Shown piece by piece: positions 2,528-23,825 of a stretch of 64,000 nucleotides of DNA; position 1 is the first letter of the stretch; each line of letters opens with the position of its first letter. Under the pieces are notes generated by a model. That model ran no database searches. It was not told where the DNA came from and saw only the letters and a list, made by a program, of their open reading frames with translations. Origin of the DNA: Jeotgalibaca arthritidis (GTDB lineage Bacteria; Bacillota; Bacilli; Lactobacillales; Aerococcaceae); the NCBI RefSeq assembly GCF_011100465.1, contig NZ_CP049740.1:809857-873856 (forward strand). Reading direction: 5' to 3'. Both the position numbers and the translations under genes were made by a program.

Positions 2528-3007
2528 TTATTTGTGGTAAGGCTCATTCTTCATAATCCGAAACGCACGATACACCTGCTCTACCAACACCAACCGCATC
2601 AACTGATGTGGGAATGTTAATTTTCCAAATGAAATCTCTTGGTTGGCTCTCTTGAGTACAGCCTTGCTTAATCCGAGTGAACCACCGATAATAAAGGTGA
2701 GGTCACTTTTGCCAGAAATGCCGAGTTGTTCGATGGTTTTGGCAAAATCGACGGAATCGTATTGTTTGCCGTTAATGGCAAGCGCGAAGACATAGCTTTG
2801 ATCGCTTACTTTAGCTAGTATGCGTTCGCCTTCTTTGTCTTTGACCATTTCCATTTCTTTATCGCTGAGGTTCTCTGGTGCTTTTTCGTCGTTAACTTCG
2901 ATGATTTGCATTTTGCAATAGCTACCGAGACGTTTGGTGTATTCGGCAATGCCTTGCTTCAAATACTTTTCCTTTAATTTTCCAACTGTTATAATCTTTA
3001 TATTCAT
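2528..3007 (-). CDS. rlmH: 23S rRNA (pseudouridine1915-N3)-methyltransferase RlmH
   Basis: 159 residues, the normal length for this SPOUT-class enzyme, which methylates pseudouridine 1915 in helix 69 of 23S rRNA on assembled 70S ribosomes. The start [16 protein letters not shown], the [10 protein letters not shown] segment and the C-terminal [10 protein letters not shown] are family hallmarks; the FIGG loop and the C-terminal Tyr-His form the cofactor and target site. It is transcribed away from ktrB, with 84 bases between the two starts. In relatives rlmH normally directly follows htrA; here about 19 kb lies between them. The last 18 bases (2528-2545) are the presumed attachment core repeated at 2417 and 1093. 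Confidence 0.97.
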
Positions 3008-3091
3008 GTGCCTTGCCCCTTTTATATTTTCATCTTCATGTTAGTGAAAAACAAAGATAAGTGCAATCTATTTTTTGAAAGGAGTGGTTTT

Positions 3092-4471
3092 GTGCGCGAC
3101 TGGATCTCTCGCTGGGGTATTTCTCAGAAGATTGTGGCGAGTTTTATTATATTGATTATGATTGGAACCTTTCTATTATCACTGCCAATCAGTCAACATC
3201 TGGGTTCTCAAGCAACTTATTTTGATCATTTCTTCCACGCTGCTTCTTTAGTAACGGTAACGGGGCTTGTGGATACGCCTATCGCTCATACGTATTCGTT
3301 TTTTGGGCAGGTGATTTGTTTAATTTTAATGCAAATTGGTGGGTTAGGAATTATGACCATTGTAGCTAGTGTGGTCACTGCTTTTGGTCGGAAGATGTCA
3401 TTGAGTGAGCGACTGGCGGTTCAGGAAGGGTTGAATCGTGAGGATGCAACGGACTTTCGTTCTTTTCTGATTACCATTTTAAAATATGTGTTTGTAATTG
3501 AAGCAGTTGGTTTTTTTATTTTATCATTCCGATTTGTACCTGATTTTGGCTGGGCTGAAGGCTTATTTACAGCCTTATTCTTATCTATTTCTGGCTTTAC
3601 GAATGCAGGTTTTGATACGTTAGGAAGCAATTCTCTCGTTTCTTATGTTCATGACCCCTTAGTTAACCTTGTTATTTCGATTTTAATTATTCTAGGTGGG
3701 ATTGGCTTTCACGTCTGGTTCGATTTTGCTTTGGTATCGCGTAATTGGTTAAAGCGTAAGGGGAAAAAGAGAATACGTTACTTCTACCGTAAATTATCGC
3801 TCCACAGTCGCTTGGCTATTATGGTGAGCCTTATCTTAACAGTAGTGGGAACGCTGATGTTTTTAGTTGTCGAATATCAAAATCCTCATACCATTGGTAA
3901 TTTTTCCTTTGGTGAAAAGTTATTGGCTAGTTTTTTCCAAACGGTTACTATGCGGACGGCTGGTTTAACTACGGTTGATTTTACGCAAGTTTATCCTTTT
4001 ACTCTATTCTGGTTTGTCATTTCTATGTTTATCGGGGGATCACCGGGTAGTACGGCTGGTGGTGTGAAAACAACGACCATCGCTATGATTGTCATTTTGG
4101 TTTACAACGTCTTCCGCGGGCAGAAAAATGTGAACATTTGGAACCATACAATTCCTGAAACGACTGTTCGAAATGCCTTTGTTATCTTTTCAGTTTTCTT
4201 TTCGGCCTTCCTTTTAGGAACGGGCGTATTGTCACTATTGAACCCAGATGTGGACTTTATTATTTTGATGTTTGAAGCTGTATCGGCGATTACAACGGTT
4301 GGGATTAGCGCCCATCTGACGCCGACATTAGGGATTGCTAGTAAAATAACCCTGATTATCTTAATGTTTGCTGGACGGATTGGACCGATTACCATGGCTG
4401 AGAGTTTAGCGCGTAAAGATAAAGAAACAAAAAATATTACCTATGCTGCTGGGAAAATAATTATCGGATAG
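3092..4471 (+). CDS. ktrB: Potassium uptake protein KtrB (TrkH/KtrB family)
   Basis: 459 residues from GTG 3092 behind GAAAGGAG; the open frame extends upstream to 3008, but that part overlaps the divergent promoter region. Four membrane-pore-membrane repeats are visible through their selectivity-filter loops: VTVTGL, SISGFTNAGFD, VTMRTAGLTTVD and SAITTVGISAH. The conserved GGSPGSTAGGVKTTT loop follows the third. The protein forms the K+(Na+)-dependent channel-like translocation dimer in the membrane, gated by the KtrA ring. ktrA follows after 15 bases, so the two form an operon. A gutted second ktrB copy lies just beyond ktrA. Confidence in family is very high; KtrB rather than TrkH is supported by the size and the short partner. 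Confidence 0.95.
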   Translation: MRDWISRWGISQKIVASFIILIMIGTFLLSLPISQHLGSQATYFDHFFHAASLVTVTGLVDTPIAHTYSFFGQVICLILMQIGGLGIMTIVASVVTAFGRKMSLSERLAVQEGLNREDATDFRSFLITILKYVFVIEAVGFFILSFRFVPDFGWAEGLFTALFLSISGFTNAGFDTLGSNSLVSYVHDPLVNLVISILIILGGIGFHVWFDFALVSRNWLKRKGKKRIRYFYRKLSLHSRLAIMVSLILTVVGTLMFLVVEYQNPHTIGNFSFGEKLLASFFQTVTMRTAGLTTVDFTQVYPFTLFWFVISMFIGGSPGSTAGGVKTTTIAMIVILVYNVFRGQKNVNIWNHTIPETTVRNAFVIFSVFFSAFLLGTGVLSLLNPDVDFIILMFEAVSAITTVGISAHLTPTLGIASKITLIILMFAGRIGPITMAESLARKDKETKNITYAAGKIIIG

Positions 4472-4486
4472 AATGGAGTAAAACTC

Positions 4487-5158
4487 ATGAAACGAACGAT
4501 TGGAATTTTAGGGTTGGGGATTTTCGGGAGAAGTATTGCCCGCACCCTTGCAGAATTTGATTATGATGTCATTGCCGTGGATAAAAGTGAGGACAACGTC
4601 AACGATTTGGAGACTCTCATTACAAAAGGCGTGATTGGTGACATTACTGACCGTGATTTATTGGAAACCATCGGCATTGGAGACTGCGATGCAGTTGTGA
4701 TTTCTACCGGTACTGTATTAGAAGCGAGTGTACTTGCAGTGATGCATTGTAAAAAACTAGGTGTACCAAAAATCATTGCTAAAGCAAAAAATAATATGTA
4801 TCGCGATGTTCTTCAAGAAATTGGCGCAAACGAAGTGATTTTGCCTGAACGTGAATCAGGAGTCCGTCTCGCAAAAAAATTGATGCGAAACAAAATTGAA
4901 GATATTGTGGAACTAGACGACCACACTTCCATTGTAGAATTTTCACCTCCTAAAAGCTGGGTTGGGAAGACGATTCAAGAACTGGATTTACGCAAAAGAT
5001 ATGACATCAACTTGATCGGCATGCGTGAATCAAAAAATGCGCCGTTAAACGTTAGTGTATTAGCAAATACACTTGTTCGAGAAGATTTAATATTTTTAGG
5101 AATTTCTGAGTCTGATATATTTGAGCGTCATGACTATTTGAAAGAACCTTATGAATAG
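4487..5158 (+). CDS. ktrA: Potassium uptake regulatory subunit KtrA (RCK domain)
   Basis: 223 residues, typical of KtrA. The N-terminal RCK_N (TrkA-N) Rossmann domain has GLGIFGRSIA and the acidic DK near residue 33 for binding ADP/ATP or NAD(H). The C-terminal RCK_C (TrkA-C) domain from ~residue 140 is the site where c-di-AMP inhibits KtrA in other Firmicutes. It assembles as an octameric ring on KtrB. It is translationally close to ktrB (15-base gap), and a terminator lies 45 bases after its stop. A c-di-AMP-binding CbpA gene is also present in the window (34059). Confidence 0.96.
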   Translation: MKRTIGILGLGIFGRSIARTLAEFDYDVIAVDKSEDNVNDLETLITKGVIGDITDRDLLETIGIGDCDAVVISTGTVLEASVLAVMHCKKLGVPKIIAKAKNNMYRDVLQEIGANEVILPERESGVRLAKKLMRNKIEDIVELDDHTSIVEFSPPKSWVGKTIQELDLRKRYDINLIGMRESKNAPLNVSVLANTLVREDLIFLGISESDIFERHDYLKEPYE

Positions 5159-13721: not shown

Positions 13722-15212
13722 ATGACTCTTATTAAAAATTGGACAACAGAGTTACGCTATCAACATTACGACAAATGGCCCGAGGATTATATAAAACAAC
13801 TAAAGAAGCAAGTATCTCAATCGAAATGGCGCTTAAATTATCACGTTCAACCAGAAACTGGATTATTAAACGATCCAAATGGCTTTTCCTTTTTTAATGG
13901 AAAATGGCATCTATTTTACCAATCCTATCCAATGGGAGCTGTCCATGGACTGAAATCATGGTTTCATCTTACTTCCACTAATTTAATCGATTGGCAAAAA
14001 GAAGGAGCTGACTTGCTCCCTGATAGTCCATACGACAGCCATGGTGTCTATTCAGGTTCTGCGTTTCCACTAGACGATCGACTTTTTTTAGCTTATACAG
14101 GCAATGTTCGAGACAACGATTGGAATCGATTCTCTTATCAAATGGGAGCATGGATGGATCAAAACAATCAAATCGAAAAAGTACAGCTACCATTAATAGA
14201 ACAGCCTCCAAAAGGATATACACAACATTTTCGTGATCCACAAATTTTTGTTTATCAAAATAAATATTTTATGGTAATCGGTGCTCAAAACGAAGCACTG
14301 GAAGGAAAAGTTTTGACATATATGAGTACAGATTTACAAAATTGGGAATTACAAGGAGAGCTGGATTTCTCTGAGCATCAAATGGGCTTTATGGTTGAAT
14401 GTCCGAATCTAGTATTCGTTGATGGAAAAGCTTTGCTCCTTTTCTGTCCTCAGGGCTTGGAAAAAGAAATTTTACCGTATCAAAATATCTATCCGAATAC
14501 GTACGTAGTCGCTAACGAGTTCGATTCAGAGAATAACCGTTTAACCAATCCTAGCAGTTTAAAAAATCTGGATGAAGGGTTTGATGTCTATGCAACTCAA
14601 GCCTTTAACGCTCCGGACGGACGGGCTCTAGCAGTTAGCTGGATTGGATTACCGGAGATTACTTATCCAACTGATCGTGAAGGCTGGGCTCATTGTTTAA
14701 GTCTCACAAAAGAGTTAACCATTAAGGACGGTATGCTTTTTCAAAATCCTGTTGCTGAAACGAAAGATTTGCGAGAAAAAGAATACAAGCTGCACGGACA
14801 GCTTCATGCTGAACCACAAGCAATCAGCACTTCAATAGAAAATCAATATGAACTGAATATAGAGTTCGAACAAGGTGCAAAAGGAAAACTGACACTGTTA
14901 GCAGACCAAAAAGAAAATACAGGATTAGAACTTTCTTTTGATACCGAGCGTGGTACAATGATAATCAACCGAGAAAATGTTGGAATCAGTTTTGGTGAAG
15001 AGTATGGTAATCAACGAGAATTCTCCATTCCACAAGGGCCGCTTTCATTGCGAGTATTTGTTGACTCGTCGGTCGTTGAAATTTTTATAAATGATGGAGA
15101 AAAAACCGCTACTGCTCGTGTGTTTCCTAAAGAATCAAAAAATGATATTTTGCTATCTGGCAGCCAAAGTTCATTTTCCGGTAAATTATGGACCTTGCGT
15201 TCAACGAAATGA
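13722..15212 (+). CDS. scrB: Sucrose-6-phosphate hydrolase, GH32
   Basis: 496 residues from the ATG at 13722 behind AAAAGGAG; a longer frame from 13677 overlaps the -10 box. GH32 motifs: LLNDPNGFSFF with the nucleophile Asp, HFRDPQIF with the transition-state Asp, and VECPNL with the acid/base Glu. A C-terminal beta-sandwich follows from ~residue 345. No signal peptide is present. It splits sucrose-6-phosphate from ScrA into glucose-6-phosphate and fructose; fructose then goes to the ROK fructokinase. scrR follows after 13 bases, so both share the operator-controlled promoter. Confidence 0.95.
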   Translation: MTLIKNWTTELRYQHYDKWPEDYIKQLKKQVSQSKWRLNYHVQPETGLLNDPNGFSFFNGKWHLFYQSYPMGAVHGLKSWFHLTSTNLIDWQKEGADLLPDSPYDSHGVYSGSAFPLDDRLFLAYTGNVRDNDWNRFSYQMGAWMDQNNQIEKVQLPLIEQPPKGYTQHFRDPQIFVYQNKYFMVIGAQNEALEGKVLTYMSTDLQNWELQGELDFSEHQMGFMVECPNLVFVDGKALLLFCPQGLEKEILPYQNIYPNTYVVANEFDSENNRLTNPSSLKNLDEGFDVYATQAFNAPDGRALAVSWIGLPEITYPTDREGWAHCLSLTKELTIKDGMLFQNPVAETKDLREKEYKLHGQLHAEPQAISTSIENQYELNIEFEQGAKGKLTLLADQKENTGLELSFDTERGTMIINRENVGISFGEEYGNQREFSIPQGPLSLRVFVDSSVVEIFINDGEKTATARVFPKESKNDILLSGSQSSFSGKLWTLRSTK

Positions 15213-15225
15213 GAGACAGAAATCA

Positions 15226-16209
15226 ATGACAATCAAGTTAACAGACGTGGCAAAAAAAGCTGGTGTCTCTCCAACTACCGTCTCACGTGTGATTAATAAT
15301 TACGGTTCACTCAGCCAAAAAACGATTGATAAAGTCCAAGCCGCTATGAAAGAATTAAATTATCAACCGAATTCCTTGGCACGCTCTTTGCAAGGAAAGA
15401 ATACTCAATTAATCGGTTTAATTTTTCCTACTGTTGCCAATCCATTTTATGGAGAGTTAGTTGAAAAAATTGAAACCAAACTTTTTGAATTAGGTTATAA
15501 AACGATTCTATGCGACAGTGCAAATAATAAAGAAAAAGAACGAAGCTACATTAACATGCTTTCTGCTAACAAAGTAGATGGAATCATTGCTGGTGCTCAT
15601 AATTTAGGCATTACAGAATATGAAAATATTGGACTGCCGATTGTTTCTTTTGACCGTTATCTTGCAGACGGAATTCCAATTATCGGTAGTGATAATTTTC
15701 GCGGAGGCTATTTAGCTACAGAGAACCTTTATCTCCATGGCGCTCGTAAAATAGCGATTTTGACAGGTAGTCAAGAGTCAGACTCTCCTACAAACCAGCG
15801 ATTAAATGGATATTTATCATTTTTAGAAGAAAAAAATATAGATTCCCATATTTTTCAGTTCCATACAAAAGCGCGATCAACAATCCTTAAAAATCTTGAA
15901 ATCAAACGTATTCTAGAGACAGAAGATATTGACAGTATCTTCTGTACAGATGACCTTACTGCTATCCTTGTCTATAATCTCTGCCAAGAATTGGATATCA
16001 ATGTTCCTGAAGAAATGAAAATTATTGGCTATGATGGCACGAAGTTTATTCAGAATTACTTTCCATACTTATCAACAATCGCTCAACCGATAAGTGATTT
16101 CGCTGATTTACTAGTGGACCTGTTACTTCAACGAATCCAATCGCCTGATAAACCTTTAGCGAACAATTACGAGCTAGCTGTTAAATTAATCCAAGGAAAA
16201 ACTTCTTAA
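15226..16209 (+). CDS. scrR: LacI-family sucrose operon repressor
   Basis: 327 residues from ATG 15226; an upstream open frame from 15091 overlaps scrB and lacks a binding site. N-terminal helix-turn-helix KLTDVAKKAGVSPTTVSRV with a hinge at ~residues 48-58 (YQPNSLARSL), then a periplasmic-binding-protein-like sensor domain. LacI family members dimerise on palindromes with a central CG. Two such sites overlie the divergent scrA and scrB promoters, so this protein very likely controls both arms and itself. A strong terminator follows eight bases after the stop. Confidence 0.92.
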   Translation: MTIKLTDVAKKAGVSPTTVSRVINNYGSLSQKTIDKVQAAMKELNYQPNSLARSLQGKNTQLIGLIFPTVANPFYGELVEKIETKLFELGYKTILCDSANNKEKERSYINMLSANKVDGIIAGAHNLGITEYENIGLPIVSFDRYLADGIPIIGSDNFRGGYLATENLYLHGARKIAILTGSQESDSPTNQRLNGYLSFLEEKNIDSHIFQFHTKARSTILKNLEIKRILETEDIDSIFCTDDLTAILVYNLCQELDINVPEEMKIIGYDGTKFIQNYFPYLSTIAQPISDFADLLVDLLLQRIQSPDKPLANNYELAVKLIQGKTS

Positions 16210-16216
16210 AAATCTT

Positions 16217-16251
16217 GAGTTCAATTCAATTGTGAATTGAACTCTTTTTTT
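16217..16251 (+). terminator. Terminator of scrBR
   Basis: GAGTTCAATTCA pairs with TGAATTGAACTC (16217-16244), followed by seven T. Confidence 0.92.
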
Positions 16252-16514
16252 GCGAAAAAAGATTCTCTGTCAAATAAAGTTAGTGTGCTTAAAAGTATTG
16301 GCTTTACAATTTTTGATACGAATGGATTTGCTTGCTTTGTTAAGAGCCCGGAGAAGACCATCTGAATAGCTCGATTTGTCCCAACTTTGTTTTTTATCAG
16401 ATAAAGATACCGATTAAAGTGGACACTTTCCTTGATAAAAATAACTTATCAGCTAAAGTCTTCTTTTTTACAACCCTCTTTCCTTGATAAATAATTCCTA
16501 TCTTCCTAGTTGGG

Positions 16515-17022
16515 TTATGCACAGCATTTCAAATATATTTTCAGCCTTGATTTTAATGTTTACATTTAAGTAATTCGCATTTTCCATGAGTCTACAACAA
16601 GCACTCTTTGAAAGATGCGTTTTTTGGAATTATCTCTTTATTTTTTCTCTCTATTTCGTTTTTCTTTCTTAATTTTAGAAGTTATCCCAAGTATTGACAC
16701 TCATATCACAGCTTATCCACAAAAGTTATCCACATGTACACATGTTCGCTCCCATATTTAGTGCTTTTTGAATTGTTAAGACTAAATGTAGGTTTTGTAA
16801 AAAAATTGTTAACTGGACAATTCGCCTACTTATCAACACAACAGATTCACAATTAAAATCCTTATTTAGATGCTTTTGTAGTCTTTTTTTCACAATCACA
16901 TTAAAGTTATCCCCACAAACTGTGGATAAGTGTGGATAAGTCTCTATCTAAAAAAGGACGGTTTAACACCTTTCTTCTGACTTATCGACAAGAGATTTAT
17001 TTTTCCCCAGTTTTTATCCACA
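16515..17022. other. DnaA-box cluster in an 880-bp gene-free AT-rich region
   Basis: Consensus TTATCCACA boxes lie at 16713, 16726 and 17014 (plus) and 16921 and 16931 (minus, two in tandem one base apart). One-mismatch boxes are TTATGCACA (16515), TTATCAACA (16830), TTATCGACA (16982) and TTATCCCCA (16907). Density and AT-rich surroundings are those of a replication origin or of a DnaA-titration site. No dnaA, dnaN or rpmH is adjacent, and the core genes to the right are transcribed towards it, which argues against the main oriC. The remainder of 16252-17050 shows no gene. Confidence 0.75.
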
Positions 17023-17052
17023 ATTTTTGACTTTCATCTTTATTTCCAAAAA

Positions 17053-17080
17053 AAGAGCGCCGAGATAAGCTCGACGCTTT
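17053..17080 (-). terminator. Terminator of the ABC exporter operon
   Basis: On the minus strand AGCGTCGAG (17070-17078) pairs with CTCGGCGCT (17056-17064), with one mismatch-type wobble, then a T7 run. Confidence 0.8.
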
Positions 17081-17092
17081 AGTTGATCTTCA

Positions 17093-18961
17093 TTAAATCA
17101 CTATTTCTTGAACTTGGCCTGTTTCATCTTTTTGATAATATTGGGCTTGTGCCTGCCACAAGTCATAATATTTCCCTTCGGATTGGCGAACAAGCTCTTG
17201 ATGGGAACCTAATTGAACCAATCTACCTTCGTCAAAAACAGCAATGCTATCACAGAAACGACAACTGGATAATCGGTGAGAAATATAAATAGTTGTTCGA
17301 CTGCCCGTTACATCCGCAAAGCGTGTATACATTTCATATTCAGACAAGGGATCTAAGGCTGCTGTTGGCTCGTCTAAAATAACGATCGGTGCTTGTTTAT
17401 AAATAGCTCTCGCCATTGCAATTTTTTGTGCTTCGCCACCGGATACCTCAATCCCATTTTCATCGTATTCTTTGTATAGATAGGTTTTGAGGCCATCCTT
17501 CAATGAAGCAAGTCGTTTAGAGAAACCAGAATGGTTTAGAGAAGTCACGATGCGGTCTTCATCTATCTCGCTACTTGCAGCGACATTCTCCCCTAACTTA
17601 AAGCCGTATAAATGGAAATCCTGGAAAACAACCGATAGTAACGACAAATATTCTTGCTCATTGTATTTTCGAATATCAATGCCATTGAGTAGAATTTGCC
17701 CTTCTGTTGGGTCATACAAGCGACAAATCAGTTTGATAAAGGTTGTCTTTCCAGATCCATTCATCCCCACAATCGCTAACTTTTCGCCGGCAGATAAACT
17801 GAGATTGATATCTTTTAAAATAAATTGATCGGTGCCTGGGTATTTAAAGGAAACATTTCTTGCTTCTAGTGTGTACTGATTGTCTAAGCGTTTTTCAACA
17901 GGGAGTGTCCCTTGGTGGCGCGTACTCTTCATGTCTAAGAAATCAAATAATTGTTCTAGCCCAACTGAATTATTAATAAATTCGGTTAGTTTTTCTAAGA
18001 AGGCTGGCATTTCACGAATTAACAAGCTTGAAGCGCCTGTATATTGGATGACAGCGCCCGTTGAAATTGCGCCGTTTAAGGTTTTGCCTATAATCCATAG
18101 GTAAGTGAATGACAGAATCAAATAGGATAAAACAACTGAAATGACGCTAACTCTGTTCACCGTTTGATTGATGTCACCCATGGTTTTTTCCACTTGATAT
18201 TCACTTTTTTTGAAAAAAGAGTCATAAATCGGGCCTTGATGGTACATTCTAATTTCTTTTCCTGACCTGAAATTATTGAGAATGGGATAAATGGCACCCA
18301 TTAAATTGTTAATTTGAACGCCATCTTGAATAAAGTTATTAAATCGTTCAAGCGACCATTTGTTAACGTATAGCACAATCATAATAAAGCCAATAAGACT
18401 TAAAAAGAACAAGACGATCAACCATGGTGAATCGACATTGATAAAAAAGCGTTGGATCGTTGACTGTGATCGGATTAAAGGGATGATGAATAGCAGACCA
18501 ATTAAAATGGTAATGGTGTGTTTAACCATATCCTTGGTCGAGCCAAACAGGCGAAACATCCCGATACCACCCGTCATTTCGTTCATTCGAATGCTACTTA
18601 GTTTCTCTTGAACAGCGATATCTTCAACAAATTGGTAGTCCATATGAATCATCTTTTTATTCAATAGCATTTCTTTTTTGTCCATCGCACGGTAAATTAA
18701 ACTCTCTCTGGTGTGAGCTAAGCCATTAGCGATGGCTGAGACGACAAAATTAATCAGTAAGGCTGCCACAACATAAGCCAGCAAGCGCTGATTAAACTGG
18801 CCGGTCATAAGTAAGTCTAAAATTCGGCTTGTAAAAAAGAATGGTAGGAAAGGAATGATTGCTTCTAGCGCTCCCTGTGACACACTTACCCACAGTAATT
18901 TGGGTTCTAATTGATGCATAAGCGCAATTCCTTTTTTATTAAGCAGTAGTGATTGAGTCAT
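17093..18961 (-). CDS. ABC exporter half-transporter (permease-ATPase fusion), second subunit
   Basis: 622 residues. N-terminal transmembrane domain with about six helices (~residues 20-320), then a nucleotide-binding domain: Walker A GMNGSGKTT, signature VSGGEAQKIAMARAI, Walker B IVILDEPTAALDP and the H-loop YISHR. The ATPase looks catalytically complete. Its start lies within the 3' end of the preceding exporter gene (23-base overlap), so the two probably form a heterodimer. The operon begins with a LytTR response regulator and a GHKL kinase, a layout common for peptide export or peptide-antibiotic resistance, but the substrate cannot be read from the sequence. Confidence 0.9.
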   Translation of the reverse strand: MTQSLLLNKKGIALMHQLEPKLLWVSVSQGALEAIIPFLPFFFTSRILDLLMTGQFNQRLLAYVVAALLINFVVSAIANGLAHTRESLIYRAMDKKEMLLNKKMIHMDYQFVEDIAVQEKLSSIRMNEMTGGIGMFRLFGSTKDMVKHTITILIGLLFIIPLIRSQSTIQRFFINVDSPWLIVLFFLSLIGFIMIVLYVNKWSLERFNNFIQDGVQINNLMGAIYPILNNFRSGKEIRMYHQGPIYDSFFKKSEYQVEKTMGDINQTVNRVSVISVVLSYLILSFTYLWIIGKTLNGAISTGAVIQYTGASSLLIREMPAFLEKLTEFINNSVGLEQLFDFLDMKSTRHQGTLPVEKRLDNQYTLEARNVSFKYPGTDQFILKDINLSLSAGEKLAIVGMNGSGKTTFIKLICRLYDPTEGQILLNGIDIRKYNEQEYLSLLSVVFQDFHLYGFKLGENVAASSEIDEDRIVTSLNHSGFSKRLASLKDGLKTYLYKEYDENGIEVSGGEAQKIAMARAIYKQAPIVILDEPTAALDPLSEYEMYTRFADVTGSRTTIYISHRLSSCRFCDSIAVFDEGRLVQLGSHQELVRQSEGKYYDLWQAQAQYYQKDETGQVQEIVI

Positions 18962-20765
18962 TTACTTTTCCCTCCCATTCTTCTTGATAGTATTGACTTT
19001 GGACTTGGTACATATCTGCATATTTTCCTTTTTTAGCTAGTAGCTCTTGGTGGCTGCCCTCTTCATAAATACTGCCGTTTTCTAGATACACAATCCGGTC
19101 ACAGAACCGCGTTGAAGAAAGGCGATGTGAAATAAAGAGAGATGTTTTATTTTGAGAAATAGCGTTATAAGCCAAGTAAATCTCATTTTCAGCAACAGGA
19201 TCAAGCGCAGCTGTTGGCTCATCCAAAATCAAAACGGGTGATTGTTTGTACAACGCACGAGCGAGCTGTAGTCGTTGCTTTTGACCGCCTGATAAATCAA
19301 CAGCTTTTGGATGGACGCGCTTCACTAGTGGCGTTTTCCCGCCTAATGGTAATTTAGCCAAAATCTCCGCCATACCAGCTTGCTCGACAGCTTCTTCATA
19401 AGATAGACTATATTTTGTTTTCGCTTGTTGGATCGTTTCTTCAATCGTAATCGGTAGTTCAAAATAATCCTGAAATACAGCTGAAAAAAGATCGAGGTAG
19501 CTGTCTTGATCAAACTCTTGTTGCGGAATGCCATTGATTAGTATTTCCCCAGAAGTCGGTTGGTACAAACCGCATAACATCATAATAATAGTTGTTTTAC
19601 CTGCGCCATTCACACCGACTAAGCCTACTTTTTCGCCTGCTGTAATTTTTAGGTTCAAATCATGAATGGTATCGCGGTCGGCATTAGGATAACGGTAGCA
19701 AACCTGACGAAATTCAATGTCAATCGGCAAGCTTAAATCATCTGTCTTACGGTCGCCAGTCGATTGAACTAAATCTAGCTCCATAAAATCACGGTAGTCT
19801 TGAACTTCACTGCTAAGATGGCGAAAGTCCGCTAAGTCAATAAACAAGCCATTTGTCCACTGTGAGATGCTAGCAATAATCCCAATGTAAAAGGAAAAAC
19901 TAGCGACAGACAAACTGCCATCAATCACTTGATTAATCAATAACCAATAAGCTAATGCGTCACGAATCATGCCAAATAAAGAGGATAATAGCGTTCCCTT
20001 AAATTGACGTTTCACTAACTGACTCATCAGTGAAAAACGAGCCGCATAAATCCGTTGAAACTCATCCTCAAACCAACTTTCCATATGAAACAGTCGCATA
20101 TCTTTAACTGCTTTAAAATCACCTGTATGGTCTACAAGGTATTTGGTTTTCTTTGATAAAGGTGCTTGTTGGCGTCTAATTGATTCTGATAGGCGGTTAG
20201 TGCCTAAACTATAGCCGTACATTAGGAGCGAGAAAATCGTGATAACCGCAATAATGAGCGGATGAAGTTGCCCAATTAAATAGCCATAAATAAGCAATCC
20301 TAAACTATCTCTTAAAAAATGATAGGATACCGTAAATATTTTTTGGAAAGCACCATTATTATTCTGAGTAGGCTCGCCTGCCTTTTGAAGCTTACTGATA
20401 TTTTCAGGTTGCTCTAATTTTTGGAAAGGCAAATACAATAACTTGCGACTAAGTCCCATCATGTTCGAAACTCGAAACATGTTCCCGCCTGAATTTTCAT
20501 AATTGCTCATCGTCTCTGAAATAATCATACAAACAGCCGTTAAAGCAAGTAAGGCGTAAAAAATAAGTTGTGCCTGATTCCAGCTTTGGTTACCACTGAC
20601 AATCGAAATGATTAGGGCAATAGTTGCTGATGTTAATAGTGGCAGTAACATATCGGCAATAGCTCTCAAAACGAAGCTAATAATATGTTTAGGCCCTTCC
20701 CGCCACATTTTTTTATATAAGTAAGTCACATTTTGTAAAACAGAATATGTTTGTGTTTCTTCCAT
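18939..20765 (-). CDS. ABC exporter half-transporter (permease-ATPase fusion), first subunit
   Basis: 608 residues from ATG 20765, with GAGGTG six bases upstream; a GTG nine bases earlier would overlap that site. Six-helix membrane domain to ~residue 330, then an ATPase with Walker A GVNGAGKTT, signature LSGGQKQRLQLARAL and ILDEPTAALDP. Both partners of the pair have intact signatures, unlike exporters with one degenerate site. A perfect hairpin with a T run separates this gene from the kinase gene upstream, so the exporter pair may have its own promoter or be subject to attenuation. Confidence 0.9.
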   Translation of the reverse strand: MEETQTYSVLQNVTYLYKKMWREGPKHIISFVLRAIADMLLPLLTSATIALIISIVSGNQSWNQAQLIFYALLALTAVCMIISETMSNYENSGGNMFRVSNMMGLSRKLLYLPFQKLEQPENISKLQKAGEPTQNNNGAFQKIFTVSYHFLRDSLGLLIYGYLIGQLHPLIIAVITIFSLLMYGYSLGTNRLSESIRRQQAPLSKKTKYLVDHTGDFKAVKDMRLFHMESWFEDEFQRIYAARFSLMSQLVKRQFKGTLLSSLFGMIRDALAYWLLINQVIDGSLSVASFSFYIGIIASISQWTNGLFIDLADFRHLSSEVQDYRDFMELDLVQSTGDRKTDDLSLPIDIEFRQVCYRYPNADRDTIHDLNLKITAGEKVGLVGVNGAGKTTIIMMLCGLYQPTSGEILINGIPQQEFDQDSYLDLFSAVFQDYFELPITIEETIQQAKTKYSLSYEEAVEQAGMAEILAKLPLGGKTPLVKRVHPKAVDLSGGQKQRLQLARALYKQSPVLILDEPTAALDPVAENEIYLAYNAISQNKTSLFISHRLSSTRFCDRIVYLENGSIYEEGSHQELLAKKGKYADMYQVQSQYYQEEWEGKVNDSITTA

Positions 20766-20810
20766 TTCTCTCACCTCTGCTATAGTTTACCAACAATTCT
20801 CGCTTAAATT

Positions 20811-20838
20811 AAAAAATGACCTTGAACGGTCATTTTTT
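20811..20838 (-). terminator. Intra-operon hairpin between kinase and exporter genes
   Basis: AAAAAATGACC and GGTCATTTTTT arms (20811-20821, 20828-20838) with a six-base loop; TTTTTTAATTT follows in the minus direction. It looks like a factor-independent terminator sitting between coupled functions. Confidence 0.75.
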
Positions 20839-20850
20839 GGGTATGAGTGG

Positions 20851-21576
20851 TTAAAGGGGTAAAAGAATCTCTGTCGCAAACACGCCTTCTTCATGCTGGC
20901 GATTGACATAACCGTTATATTTTTTCGCTGTTTGATCAATTCTCTTTAAGCCAAAACCGTGCTCTTTACCTGTTTTTGTTGTTGAATAACCACCAGCTAT
21001 TTTTTTCAACACTTGATTCATACTATTGGTAACAGAAATATAGAGTTGCTGTTTCATCACCGTAATATAAACCCGGATAAAGCGTTCGTCCGCATCTTCA
21101 ATGGTCAAACAGCCTTCTATCGCATTGGACAGCAAATTACCAATCAACACCCCTAAATCCACATTACTAACAGCTAAATTTGAAGGGATTTCGGCAGTGA
21201 CATTTAATTGAATGTCGCGCGCTTCAGCGAGGGATAACTTACTATTTAAAATCGCATCTGCCATAACGTTGCCCGTACGAATGGATAAATCAATAGTTAC
21301 TAGATCTTCATCCAAATCAGCTAAATAATTCTCCAATTGGGGTAATTGATCTAGTTCTAAATAGGCCTTCATCGACTGGATATGATTCTTATAGTCGTGG
21401 CGCCAGCCCCTCATCTGCCGATAAATATTTTCAACTTCTTCTGCATGCTGTTTAAGCATATCGGTTTGCGTTTCGACCAACTGCTCTTGGCGTTTTTTCT
21501 GAAGAAAATAAAGGGTTATCGTTAATACAATCAGGAGCACAACAAGTAGCATTAAAATAAGTTCTATTTTAGTCAT
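20851..21576 (-). CDS. GHKL-type sensor histidine kinase (AgrC/NatK-like, single TM)
   Basis: 241 residues. One hydrophobic segment (residues 5-25, LILMLLVVLLIVLTITLYF), a coiled stretch, the phosphoacceptor motif WRHDYKNHIQSMKAYL (His ~61), and a GHKL ATPase with VLIGNLLSNAIEGC (N-box) and GFGLKRI (G-box). This is the class partnered with LytTR regulators. It lacks the multi-helix sensor of AgrC, so it probably senses through the membrane partner, perhaps the ABC pair. Its start overlaps the regulator stop by four bases. Confidence 0.9.
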   Translation of the reverse strand: MTKIELILMLLVVLLIVLTITLYFLQKKRQEQLVETQTDMLKQHAEEVENIYRQMRGWRHDYKNHIQSMKAYLELDQLPQLENYLADLDEDLVTIDLSIRTGNVMADAILNSKLSLAEARDIQLNVTAEIPSNLAVSNVDLGVLIGNLLSNAIEGCLTIEDADERFIRVYITVMKQQLYISVTNSMNQVLKKIAGGYSTTKTGKEHGFGLKRIDQTAKKYNGYVNRQHEEGVFATEILLPL

Positions 21577-22304
21577 TGGGCATCCTTCCTAAAGTAAGAA
21601 ATGAAGGCTTGAGCCACGTCTTTTGAGTTCCTTCTCGAAATCGGAATGACCAGCTCATTAGCCATGATTACTTCTGACTTTTTTACACGTTCAATATGCT
21701 GGCAGTTAATTAGCCAGTTTCGGTTTGTTTGAATAAATTGCTTGTTGTCTAACTGCTTCATAAAATCCTGCATACTTGTTTTAAGGCTATAAGTGCTAGT
21801 TGTGGTGGTTATGACTAGTTCTTTACCGACGATTTCTGCACAAATTAGGCTAGATAGTGGGAGTTTTACTTGTTCATCCTCAATCGGTAAAATGATAACC
21901 GCTTCTTCCTTGGGGATGGTCGTCAGCACCCGATCCAATACGGCATAAAGCTGGTCTTTTTTGACGGGTTTAATTAAAAAGTCGCTAGCAGAAACACGGT
22001 AGCCTTCGCCGATACGTTCTGTCATTCCGGTAATAAAGACAATTTTTAATTGGTCTACTGTCTCGCGAATTTTTTCGGCTAAAGCAACACCATCCAGCTC
22101 TTCCATTTGAATATCGAGAAAAAGTAAATCGACAGCCTTATTTTCTGCGTATTCAAATAAAAATGCTTCCGCACTTTCAAAAATAGGTAAATGAAACTGA
22201 ATACCACGCTCGGCCGCATAGTCTGCTAATATTTTTTGAATAAATTTGGCTTGAATCAACTCATTCTCACAAATCGCCAATGTATATGTCTGCAAAATGG
22301 TCAC
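21573..22304 (-). CDS. LytTR-family response regulator
   Basis: 243 residues. REC domain with phosphorylatable Asp in DLLFLDIQMEELDG (~residue 61), Thr in ITGM and Lys in IKPVKKDQL. A LytTR DNA-binding domain covers ~residues 145-240 (FIQTNRNWLINCQHIERVKK). It is first in a four-gene minus-strand operon with kinase and two exporter subunits; start and stop overlap the kinase by four bases. LytTR proteins bind pairs of imperfect 9-bp direct repeats; none was identified confidently upstream. Confidence 0.92.
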   Translation of the reverse strand: MTILQTYTLAICENELIQAKFIQKILADYAAERGIQFHLPIFESAEAFLFEYAENKAVDLLFLDIQMEELDGVALAEKIRETVDQLKIVFITGMTERIGEGYRVSASDFLIKPVKKDQLYAVLDRVLTTIPKEEAVIILPIEDEQVKLPLSSLICAEIVGKELVITTTTSTYSLKTSMQDFMKQLDNKQFIQTNRNWLINCQHIERVKKSEVIMANELVIPISRRNSKDVAQAFISYFRKDAQ

Positions 22305-22454: not shown

Positions 22455-23825
22455 TTAAAGTCGGGCTTGTCCATCGGTCAGGGTGACATCCAGTGTCTGC
22501 AATTCGCCATCTCGGTAGAAGGAAATGCTGACTGTGCTACCAACTTCTAAACTATAGAGAACTTTTCTCAGCTCAACCATGTTATTAACTTCTTCGCCGG
22601 CAATCTCAACAATAATATCGTATTGCTCAATCCCTGCTGCTTCTGCGGCAGAAACTGGTTGAACATCAGCAACGACAACACCTGACGTCACGTCAGCTGG
22701 CACTTTCAGAATAGCTTGTTGTTGAGAAACAGAAACTTGCGTCAAGTCTAGCATGCTAACACCTAGAACAGGACGGATGACTTCACCATGTTGTTCCAAC
22801 TCGCTAATAATATGAACAACATCATTACTTGGAATGGCAAAGCCCATTCCTTCAACATTGGAATCAGCAATCTTCATTGAGTTGATTCCAATGACTTGTC
22901 CGGTAATGTTAATCAAGGCACCACCAGAGTTCCCTGGGTTAATGGATGCATCGGTTTGAATAGCTGTTACGTCCCAATCGACTACGCCGTCGCCGTCAAT
23001 ATCCGTTTCAACCGTCCGTTCTGTTGCAGAAATAATCCCTTGTGTAACCGATGTTGCAAATTCTGTTCCGAGTGGTGAACCAATCGCAATAGCTGGCTCG
23101 CCAACATTCAAGTTATCAGAGTTTCCGAACTCAGCAAGCACGCCAATATCTTCAGCTGGAATCGTCAAAACAGCCAAGTCAGTCCAGACGTCGCTACCGA
23201 CTACTTGGGCTTCTTTTTTAGTACCATCTTTCATCATGACTTCGAGTGCGTCGGCACCATCAATCACGTGATTATTAGTTACCACATAGGCCAAATCGCC
23301 TTCAACTTTGTAGACAACCCCACTACCTGTTCCATTAGTCACCAGGTCACTTTCAGCTGTTTCAGATTGTGGAATCGTAAAACCAAATAAATTGCCTGAA
23401 CTTTCGACCAAATTAATAACCGATACAACCGCTTCTTGAACAGTCTCTACTGCTTGTGTCGTACCTGTTTGCACATCCACATTAATGGTAGTTGTTTTAA
23501 CGCCCGTCTCTTCATCAACGATCGTTGTCGATTCTGTGGGTGTTTGCCCAGTTTGATTAAGGTCTACAATGCCACTGCCTACTAGTACGCCCGTACCCAG
23601 TAACGCAACTGTAGCTCCCCCAATTAACCCTCCAAAAATACCACTTTTAATGGTGGACTGTTTTTTTATCTTTGGCTCTTGTTGCGGTTGACGACTGGTT
23701 TGTTGCTGTCTCATTCGCTCTCTCCTTTCCTCTTTTTTATCTGTCACTTCTTCAAATTCTGCTTCTTGTTCTTCCGTTCTAAATACATCTTCTGGATCTT
23801 TGTTTTCCCATTCATTCTTGTCCAT
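22455..23825 (-). CDS. htrA: HtrA-like serine protease
   Basis: 456 residues. A charged cytoplasmic N-terminus (1-~60) precedes one membrane anchor (IFGGLIGGATVALLGTGVLV). The trypsin-like domain has His in TNNHVIDGA, Asp in WTDLAVL and Ser in NPGNSGGALI; a single PDZ domain follows from ~residue 355. The protein faces the cell surface and degrades misfolded exported proteins. It lies directly after walJ, the usual place in Lactobacillales, behind its own TATAAT-containing promoter region. rlmH, its usual next neighbour, is 19 kb away. Confidence 0.96.
   Translation of the reverse strand: MDKNEWENKDPEDVFRTEEQEAEFEEVTDKKEERRERMRQQQTSRQPQQEPKIKKQSTIKSGIFGGLIGGATVALLGTGVLVGSGIVDLNQTGQTPTESTTIVDEETGVKTTTINVDVQTGTTQAVETVQEAVVSVINLVESSGNLFGFTIPQSETAESDLVTNGTGSGVVYKVEGDLAYVVTNNHVIDGADALEVMMKDGTKKEAQVVGSDVWTDLAVLTIPAEDIGVLAEFGNSDNLNVGEPAIAIGSPLGTEFATSVTQGIISATERTVETDIDGDGVVDWDVTAIQTDASINPGNSGGALINITGQVIGINSMKIADSNVEGMGFAIPSNDVVHIISELEQHGEVIRPVLGVSMLDLTQVSVSQQQAILKVPADVTSGVVVADVQPVSAAEAAGIEQYDIIVEIAGEEVNNMVELRKVLYSLEVGSTVSISFYRDGELQTLDVTLTDGQARL

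Follow-up and report, generated by a model that had tools for sequence, protein, structure and literature searches.

The region upstream of yydA in Bacillus subtilis is reported to carry seven DnaA sites, with an apparent Kd of 0.16 µM for ATP-DnaA, and as region 8 it is counted among the eight strongest DnaA-binding regions (PMC4447404). According to accounts of the same species, loss of six off-origin clusters results in early initiation, and strong restraint is exerted by these clusters only as a set (PMC13220808, PMC5295017). Among the titles and abstract beginnings covered by our literature search, no paper on such a cluster in Lactobacillales was found; no claim of a first report is made, and Okumura 2012 and Ishikawa 2007 may treat its conservation. 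The yydA region is presumably one of the six Okumura clusters.

A dense group of DnaA boxes was present at positions 16515-17022 of a 64-kb stretch of the Jeotgalibaca arthritidis chromosome (C1 809857-873856, hereafter the window, from whose first base positions without prefix are counted). Like the B. subtilis yydA region, it consists of multiple DnaA boxes at an rlmH locus away from the origin; it differs in that the J. arthritidis cluster lies more than 13 kb from rlmH, between convergent genes, and with other outer box spacings. The likeness to B. subtilis is based on the loci of Bacillus relatives, in which the same core pair is found between rlmH and htrA. We consider it likely that the interval is an off-oriC chromosomal DnaA-box cluster, this lineage's counterpart of the DnaA-binding region upstream of rlmH (yydA) in Bacilli, and that it would titrate DnaA. 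The features of the locus are as follows:

2528-3007, minus strand: rlmH (counterpart of B. subtilis yydA), the usual other neighbour of the cluster
3008-5158 (ORF limits as listed), plus strand: trkH and trkA, between rlmH and the cluster, likewise in several related genera
15091-16209, plus strand: gene of a LacI-family regulator, last of a sucrose gene set, 3' end toward the cluster
16217-16244, plus strand: terminator-like hairpin at the left border, 12 pairs and a T run, 3' of the LacI-type gene
16515-17022, no strand: DnaA-box cluster, five exact and four one-mismatch boxes
16713-16742, plus strand: core, exact boxes 16713-16721 and 16726-16734 (13-base pitch) and an overlapping weak third site ATGTACACA at 16734-16742
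16830-16838, plus strand: one-mismatch box TTATCAACA, 117 bases from the core start
16907-16939, no strand: box group, one-mismatch box 16907 (plus) and exact pair 16921 (minus)/16931 (minus)
16982-17022, plus strand: box pair, one-mismatch 16982 and exact 17014, 32 bases apart
17056-17078, minus strand: terminator-like hairpin at the right border, 9 pairs and a T run, 3' of the ABC gene
17093-18961, minus strand: ABC transporter gene, 3' end toward the cluster
22455-23825, minus strand: htrA, end of the walRK-yycHIJ-htrA row, adjoining the cluster in many relatives

The exact TTATCCACA boxes at 16713(+), 16726(+), 16921(−), 16931(−) and 17014(+) were the sole five in the 64-kb window, and one-mismatch boxes within the interval, all on the plus strand, were found at 16515, 16830, 16907 and 16982. 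These positions, including the tandem pair 16713/16726 with its 13-base pitch, agreed with those of an earlier sequence-only reading of the window; 16921/16931 form a second close pair. None of 100 dinucleotide shuffles of the window contained at least five exact boxes. Boxes with at most one mismatch numbered 24 over the whole window against a shuffle mean of 19.4, with 16 shuffles reaching 24 or more, which is no excess; the unusual feature is thus the clustering of boxes and not the window-wide number of one-mismatch boxes. The genome of 2,348,096 bases contained 31 exact boxes (28 for the reversed control pattern), five of which lie in the cluster, while 0.006 are expected per 508 bases; the Poisson probability of at least five is ~5e-14, or ~2e-10 over all such windows. 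Using a score of three points for an exact and one for a one-mismatch box per 500 bases, weights that were our own choice, the cluster reached 19 against a maximum of 7 in 3000 draws from a first-order Markov null built from 100 loci of relatives, mostly of 10 kb. This value was the highest in the 638 kb of the genome that were scored, followed by 11 at dnaA. With nine boxes in 508 bases, a density beyond chance, and a distance of ~226 kb from dnaA, the interval is probably one of the off-origin DnaA-box clusters of Bacilli. Its GC content is 31.1% in 16515-17022 as against 38.6% for the window, and the gap between the convergent stop codons of 15091-16209(+) and 17093-18961(−) contains only short candidate ORFs of 25-57 codons, so that its description as gene-free and AT-rich was upheld. 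A smaller box group (two exact, one near) was noted at C1:225742-226038 within a gene for a type I restriction subunit R.

As the sequence-only reading had stated, dnaA and dnaN lie outside the window, and the minus strand carries the core genes to the right of the cluster (walK/walR, alr, murF and the end of rho). Its expectation of a main origin further right was borne out by dnaA, a minus-strand gene that occupies C1 1053198-1054628, ~226 kb right of the cluster. All 15 sampled left-arm stretches, and each of the three 20 kb parts that make up the window, had a negative mean GC skew, and all 13 sampled right-arm stretches had a positive one, single 5 kb pieces deviating on both arms. The sign switched in two straddling stretches, one holding dnaA (seen in 1 kb steps) and the other near 2.20 Mb. 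At the cluster no skew switch was seen, window skew being mostly negative on either side with some positive 2 kb pieces. Furthermore, the dnaA-dnaN gap contains an exact box followed by a TTTTCCACA box, a 13-base spacer, a CTACTACTACTACTA DnaA-trio run and an AT-rich run, in agreement with PMC8287927, where boxes, spacer and DnaA-trios are arranged in this manner and where the NAN pattern is looser than the strict one used here. No strict DnaA-trio pattern was found within 40 bases after any box of the cluster. Position of dnaA, skew and trios thus led to rejection of the cluster as main oriC. In the Bacillus-type bipartite oriC (dnaA and dnaA-dnaN gaps) boxes overlap at an 8-base pitch; the cluster shares the box consensus and also has two sites that overlap at this pitch, but unlike such an origin it is devoid of strict DnaA-trios, dnaA/dnaN and a skew switch.

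The higher box score of the cluster (19 versus 11 at dnaA) and its AT-richness would suit an origin used under some conditions, be it a second or latent one or half of a bipartite origin that was displaced, and its core presumably resembles tandem origin boxes. This explanation is nevertheless very improbable, given the lack of a skew switch and of strict DnaA-trios at the cluster and of any replication initiator among the 38 of the 81 listed window ORFs that were scanned with NCBIfam models. More boxes were detected upstream of dnaA, which therefore carries boxes on both sides in addition to the trios, and both halves of the origin seem to be present there. The displaced second half proposed in the sequence-only reading was consequently discarded. 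Using the parS consensus, exact parS sites were found only at 1.044-1.045 Mb and no parS-like site with up to two mismatches occurred in the window, and a segregation site at the cluster was rejected on these grounds. The stretch C1:1044067-1045244, 9 kb from dnaA, contains three parS sites (four exact matches), two of which are at most ~190 bases from four DnaA boxes, one exact and three with one mismatch, in a gap between minus-strand ORFs.

The best solved-structure match of the RlmH protein of the window was B. subtilis YydA (1to0). The start of rlmH at 3007 is separated by more than 13 kb from the cluster at 16515, which hence is not directly upstream of this gene, and no box cluster was present at the start of rlmH itself, where a single one-mismatch box was found at 3268. 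The interval between rlmH and the cluster now holds trkH, trkA and the sugar gene set ending at 16209, and that between the cluster and htrA holds two ABC genes, a histidine kinase gene and a gene for a LytTR-type response regulator (17093-22304). The AgrC-like histidine kinase and LytTR-type regulator genes at 20851-22304 are probably a later insert at the locus. In J. arthritidis the cluster is therefore separated from both rlmH and htrA; order and orientation, with the core on the rlmH side and pointing to htrA, are kept despite the inserts on both sides. A second rlmH copy was noted at C1:745437-745889, ~66 kb from the first, with a protein 89% identical over residues 9-159; no DnaA-box cluster lies alongside this copy, and a gene with integrase-core and Mu-transposase C-terminal domains is located ~5 kb from it.

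The adjoining sugar and ABC genes look inserted relative to relatives, as might be expected of an integrated plasmid or phage whose origin the boxes would represent. However, genome G003 of the same genus has htrA, the cluster, trkA, trkH and rlmH in this order without any of the sugar, ABC or two-component genes, many Bacilli, other families among them, have counterparts of the cluster at their rlmH-htrA locus, and no initiator was seen among the scanned ORFs, which makes an integrated replicon, another proposal of the sequence-only reading, extremely unlikely. The integrated replicon and the displaced half-origin were both rejected on the basis of the synteny in relatives and the dnaA locus.

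The distribution of these counterparts was determined at 100 htrA loci, from 97 other genomes of the order and three of the same genus, several pieces ending early at contig ends. Downstream of htrA, 67 of the 100 loci exceeded the null's 99.5% point in their box score. By family (f1-f40 being label numbers only, and counts treating related genomes as separate), clusters were found in f1 10/14, f2 12/12, f3 1/12, f4 13/13, f5 0/1, f6 12/12, f7 10/12, f8 0/12 and f9 9/12. In f4, dnaA followed in 12 of the 13 loci, the thirteenth piece being short, and the boxes of this family appear to be the origin itself. Wherever rlmH was present on the examined htrA piece, the cluster was mostly located between htrA and rlmH. 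The 500 bases upstream of rlmH scored above 4 in 29 of 37 genomes of the order, picked mainly for an htrA without downstream cluster. The misses were G039, G073, G098, G077, G014, G018, G122 and G011, of which G014 has a strong cluster ~11 kb from rlmH, and G073 and G122 have one on the htrA piece. Genome G008 had no cluster on a 9.3 kb piece holding htrA, trkHA and rlmH. Altogether, six genomes of the order (G008, G011, G018, G039, G077 and G098) showed no cluster at either place examined, i.e. the htrA side and upstream of rlmH.

At the level of the class, 91 genomes were drawn, of which 85 had rlmH and 82 were scored, J. arthritidis and two genomes of the 37-genome set (G042 and G049) being left out. 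A score above 4 upstream of rlmH was obtained in 32 of the 82, belonging to 12 of 31 families, and 50 scored 4 or less; every member of f12, f14, f15 and f30 scored 0 or 1. A scan of ~85,000 species with the 30-base core pattern matched at least 120 stretches, 80 of which were listed, a list that is possibly biased; among these, an rlmH and/or htrA match lay alongside in 72 of the 80 loci, including Bacillus, Peribacillus, Listeria, Carnobacterium, Trichococcus and others. Two Lachnospiraceae loci among the 80 listed adjoin dnaA, and six, all metagenome-derived (L197, L208, L209, L217, L261 and L266), had no rlmH, htrA or dnaA match. The distance from core to rlmH was a few tens of bases in many of the listed matches and some hundreds in others, e.g. 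in several Peribacillus. Since the core pattern lies beside rlmH or htrA, and the yydA upstream region is among the strongest DnaA-binding regions, the J. arthritidis cluster is best read as the counterpart of the known B. subtilis cluster.

Nine genomes have trkHA between htrA and rlmH, namely J. arthritidis, G003, G005, G008, G009, G012, G013, G096 and G104. With the exception of G008, which is devoid of it, they keep the cluster on that side of trkA which faces htrA, the scores ranging from 6 (G104, the weakest) to 19. The 3' ends of trkA and htrA flank the cluster in G003, G009 and three named Trichococcus contigs, and neither gene starts beside it.

These data bear on the explanation that the cluster is a DnaA-controlled promoter region through which DnaA acts on an adjacent gene, a role put forward for the B. 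subtilis yydA (rlmH) operon. It agrees with the position of the core or a box pair in many relatives, where rlmH begins a few tens of bases downstream, and with the reported direct regulation of yyzF-yydABCD by DnaA in B. subtilis (PMC8203912). In J. arthritidis, however, the genes on either side have their 3' ends at the cluster and are followed by the terminator-like hairpins, rlmH lies at a distance of more than 13 kb and itself lacks a cluster, and the boxes are also kept in those related genera in which trkA faces htrA. Moreover, six promoter-like matches were counted against a shuffle mean of 3.5 (sd 1.9), and no Rfam match was obtained in 14000-19500 at E 0.1, a result by which a structured RNA at the gap was likewise rejected. 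A promoter function in J. arthritidis is thus unlikely.

The gap sequence itself was used to search 60 genomes, J. arthritidis included, and gave matches in 23: along the gap in J. arthritidis and G001, within 16697-16808 in 17, and only elsewhere in four. At least one of the matches (G018) is the own origin of that genome, beside dnaA. The left part of the gap (16260-16490) was seen to match a repeat that is dispersed over seven other places (nine matches) of G001, of the same genus, and no further copy was found in the J. arthritidis genome at the sensitivity of that search.

The conservation in relatives that the sequence-only reading had put forward for checking was evident not only in these counterparts at the rlmH-htrA locus of other families but also in the sequence of the cluster. 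In an alignment of eight genomes (J. arthritidis, G001-G005 and two of the genus Trichococcus), box columns showed 81% and spacer columns 51% pairwise identity for eight of the nine boxes, the choice of boxes from the J. arthritidis sequence favouring their alignment. The core was the most conserved part, with 16731-16742, including the overlapping third site, invariant in all eight genomes; box 16931 was 97% identical, and box 16921 only 38%. A box 115-118 bases from the core start recurred in Isobaculum, Carnobacterium, Trichococcus, Latilactobacillus and Loigolactobacillus loci, and a spacing of 30-33 bases, as in 16982/17014 (32 bases), was common to many clusters of f2 and f6. Many clusters share a skeleton which, in an htrA-oriented frame, comprises a box at 0, a box at ~30-33, an opposite box at ~83-87, a box at ~184-213 and the core pair at ~280-330. 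Many Bacillus-type loci have in common the core pair and an opposite box ~106 bases away, and differ in their outer boxes. An imperfect palindrome of the CATATGGTAG..CTACCATATATAT type was noticed by eye after the core in three f2 genomes (L022, L024 and L030).

Such geometry, common within and partly between families, with its 13-base core pair, weak overlapping third site and, in several families, an opposite box at a distance of ~83-87 bases from that on the htrA side, could also point to a locus of the datA/DARS type, in which a fixed arrangement of boxes builds a complex altering the nucleotide state of DnaA rather than merely holding it. Like E. coli datA, the cluster is a non-coding group of DnaA boxes away from oriC. 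E. coli datA, though, needs IHF for its promotion of DnaA-ATP hydrolysis (PMC5295017), and B. subtilis is described in a review as having neither IHF nor datA or DARS loci (PMC13220808), so that we regard this explanation as improbable.

Binding and titration of DnaA, by which initiation would be tuned, is the best-supported role for the cluster. As the boxes are kept without a gene to control, DnaA binding is favoured as the retained function and titration becomes the leading model. Several DnaA molecules would bind the cluster cooperatively, with the core pair and the overlapping third site as the probable anchor. The replication fork would pass the cluster early after initiation, each new copy would take up DnaA, and the resulting decrease of the free pool may delay initiation at oriC or make it more regular. 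The J. arthritidis cluster would no longer act as an rlmH promoter switch, and the same region may be one in relatives.

Three observations speak against the counterpart and titration reading as a whole, viz. the low identity (38%) of box 16921, the absence of a cluster from both places in six genomes of the order, and the scores of 4 or less in 50 of the 82 class genomes. In addition, a ~10-fold excess of DnaA is reported to cause no over-initiation in B. subtilis, unlike in E. coli (PMC13220808), a finding that argues against titration in its simple form. The sequence-only reading had suggested a titrating or replication-timing site. Titration remains the best-supported reading, by way of the Bacillus counterpart regions, but the distance between cluster and dnaA, which by hand calculation ranges from ~22 kb (G085) to ~425 kb (G096) in complete or near-complete relatives outside f4, is odd if position were to set timing. 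The chromosomal position of the cluster relative to dnaA is not strictly kept.

A broader proposal, which we advance tentatively and with more doubt than belief, sees in the rlmH-locus cluster a DnaA control element in its own right, widespread among Bacilli and of fixed geometry. It would be a datA analogue of Gram-positive bacteria, selected for setting the pool of free or active DnaA. Regulation of rlmH would then be secondary, as is suggested by a lineage in which the cluster was detached from rlmH and kept.

DnaA-box clusters of the Bacillus type may serve gene regulation or the holding of DnaA, and the J. arthritidis lineage offers a natural experiment in this respect. Here the cluster has been parted from its gene and its boxes have yet been retained, which favours DnaA binding as the selected function. 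The locus is also clean for deletion, as no known promoter would be removed together with the cluster. The data also suggest that several families of the Lactobacillales possess counterparts of the B. subtilis cluster.
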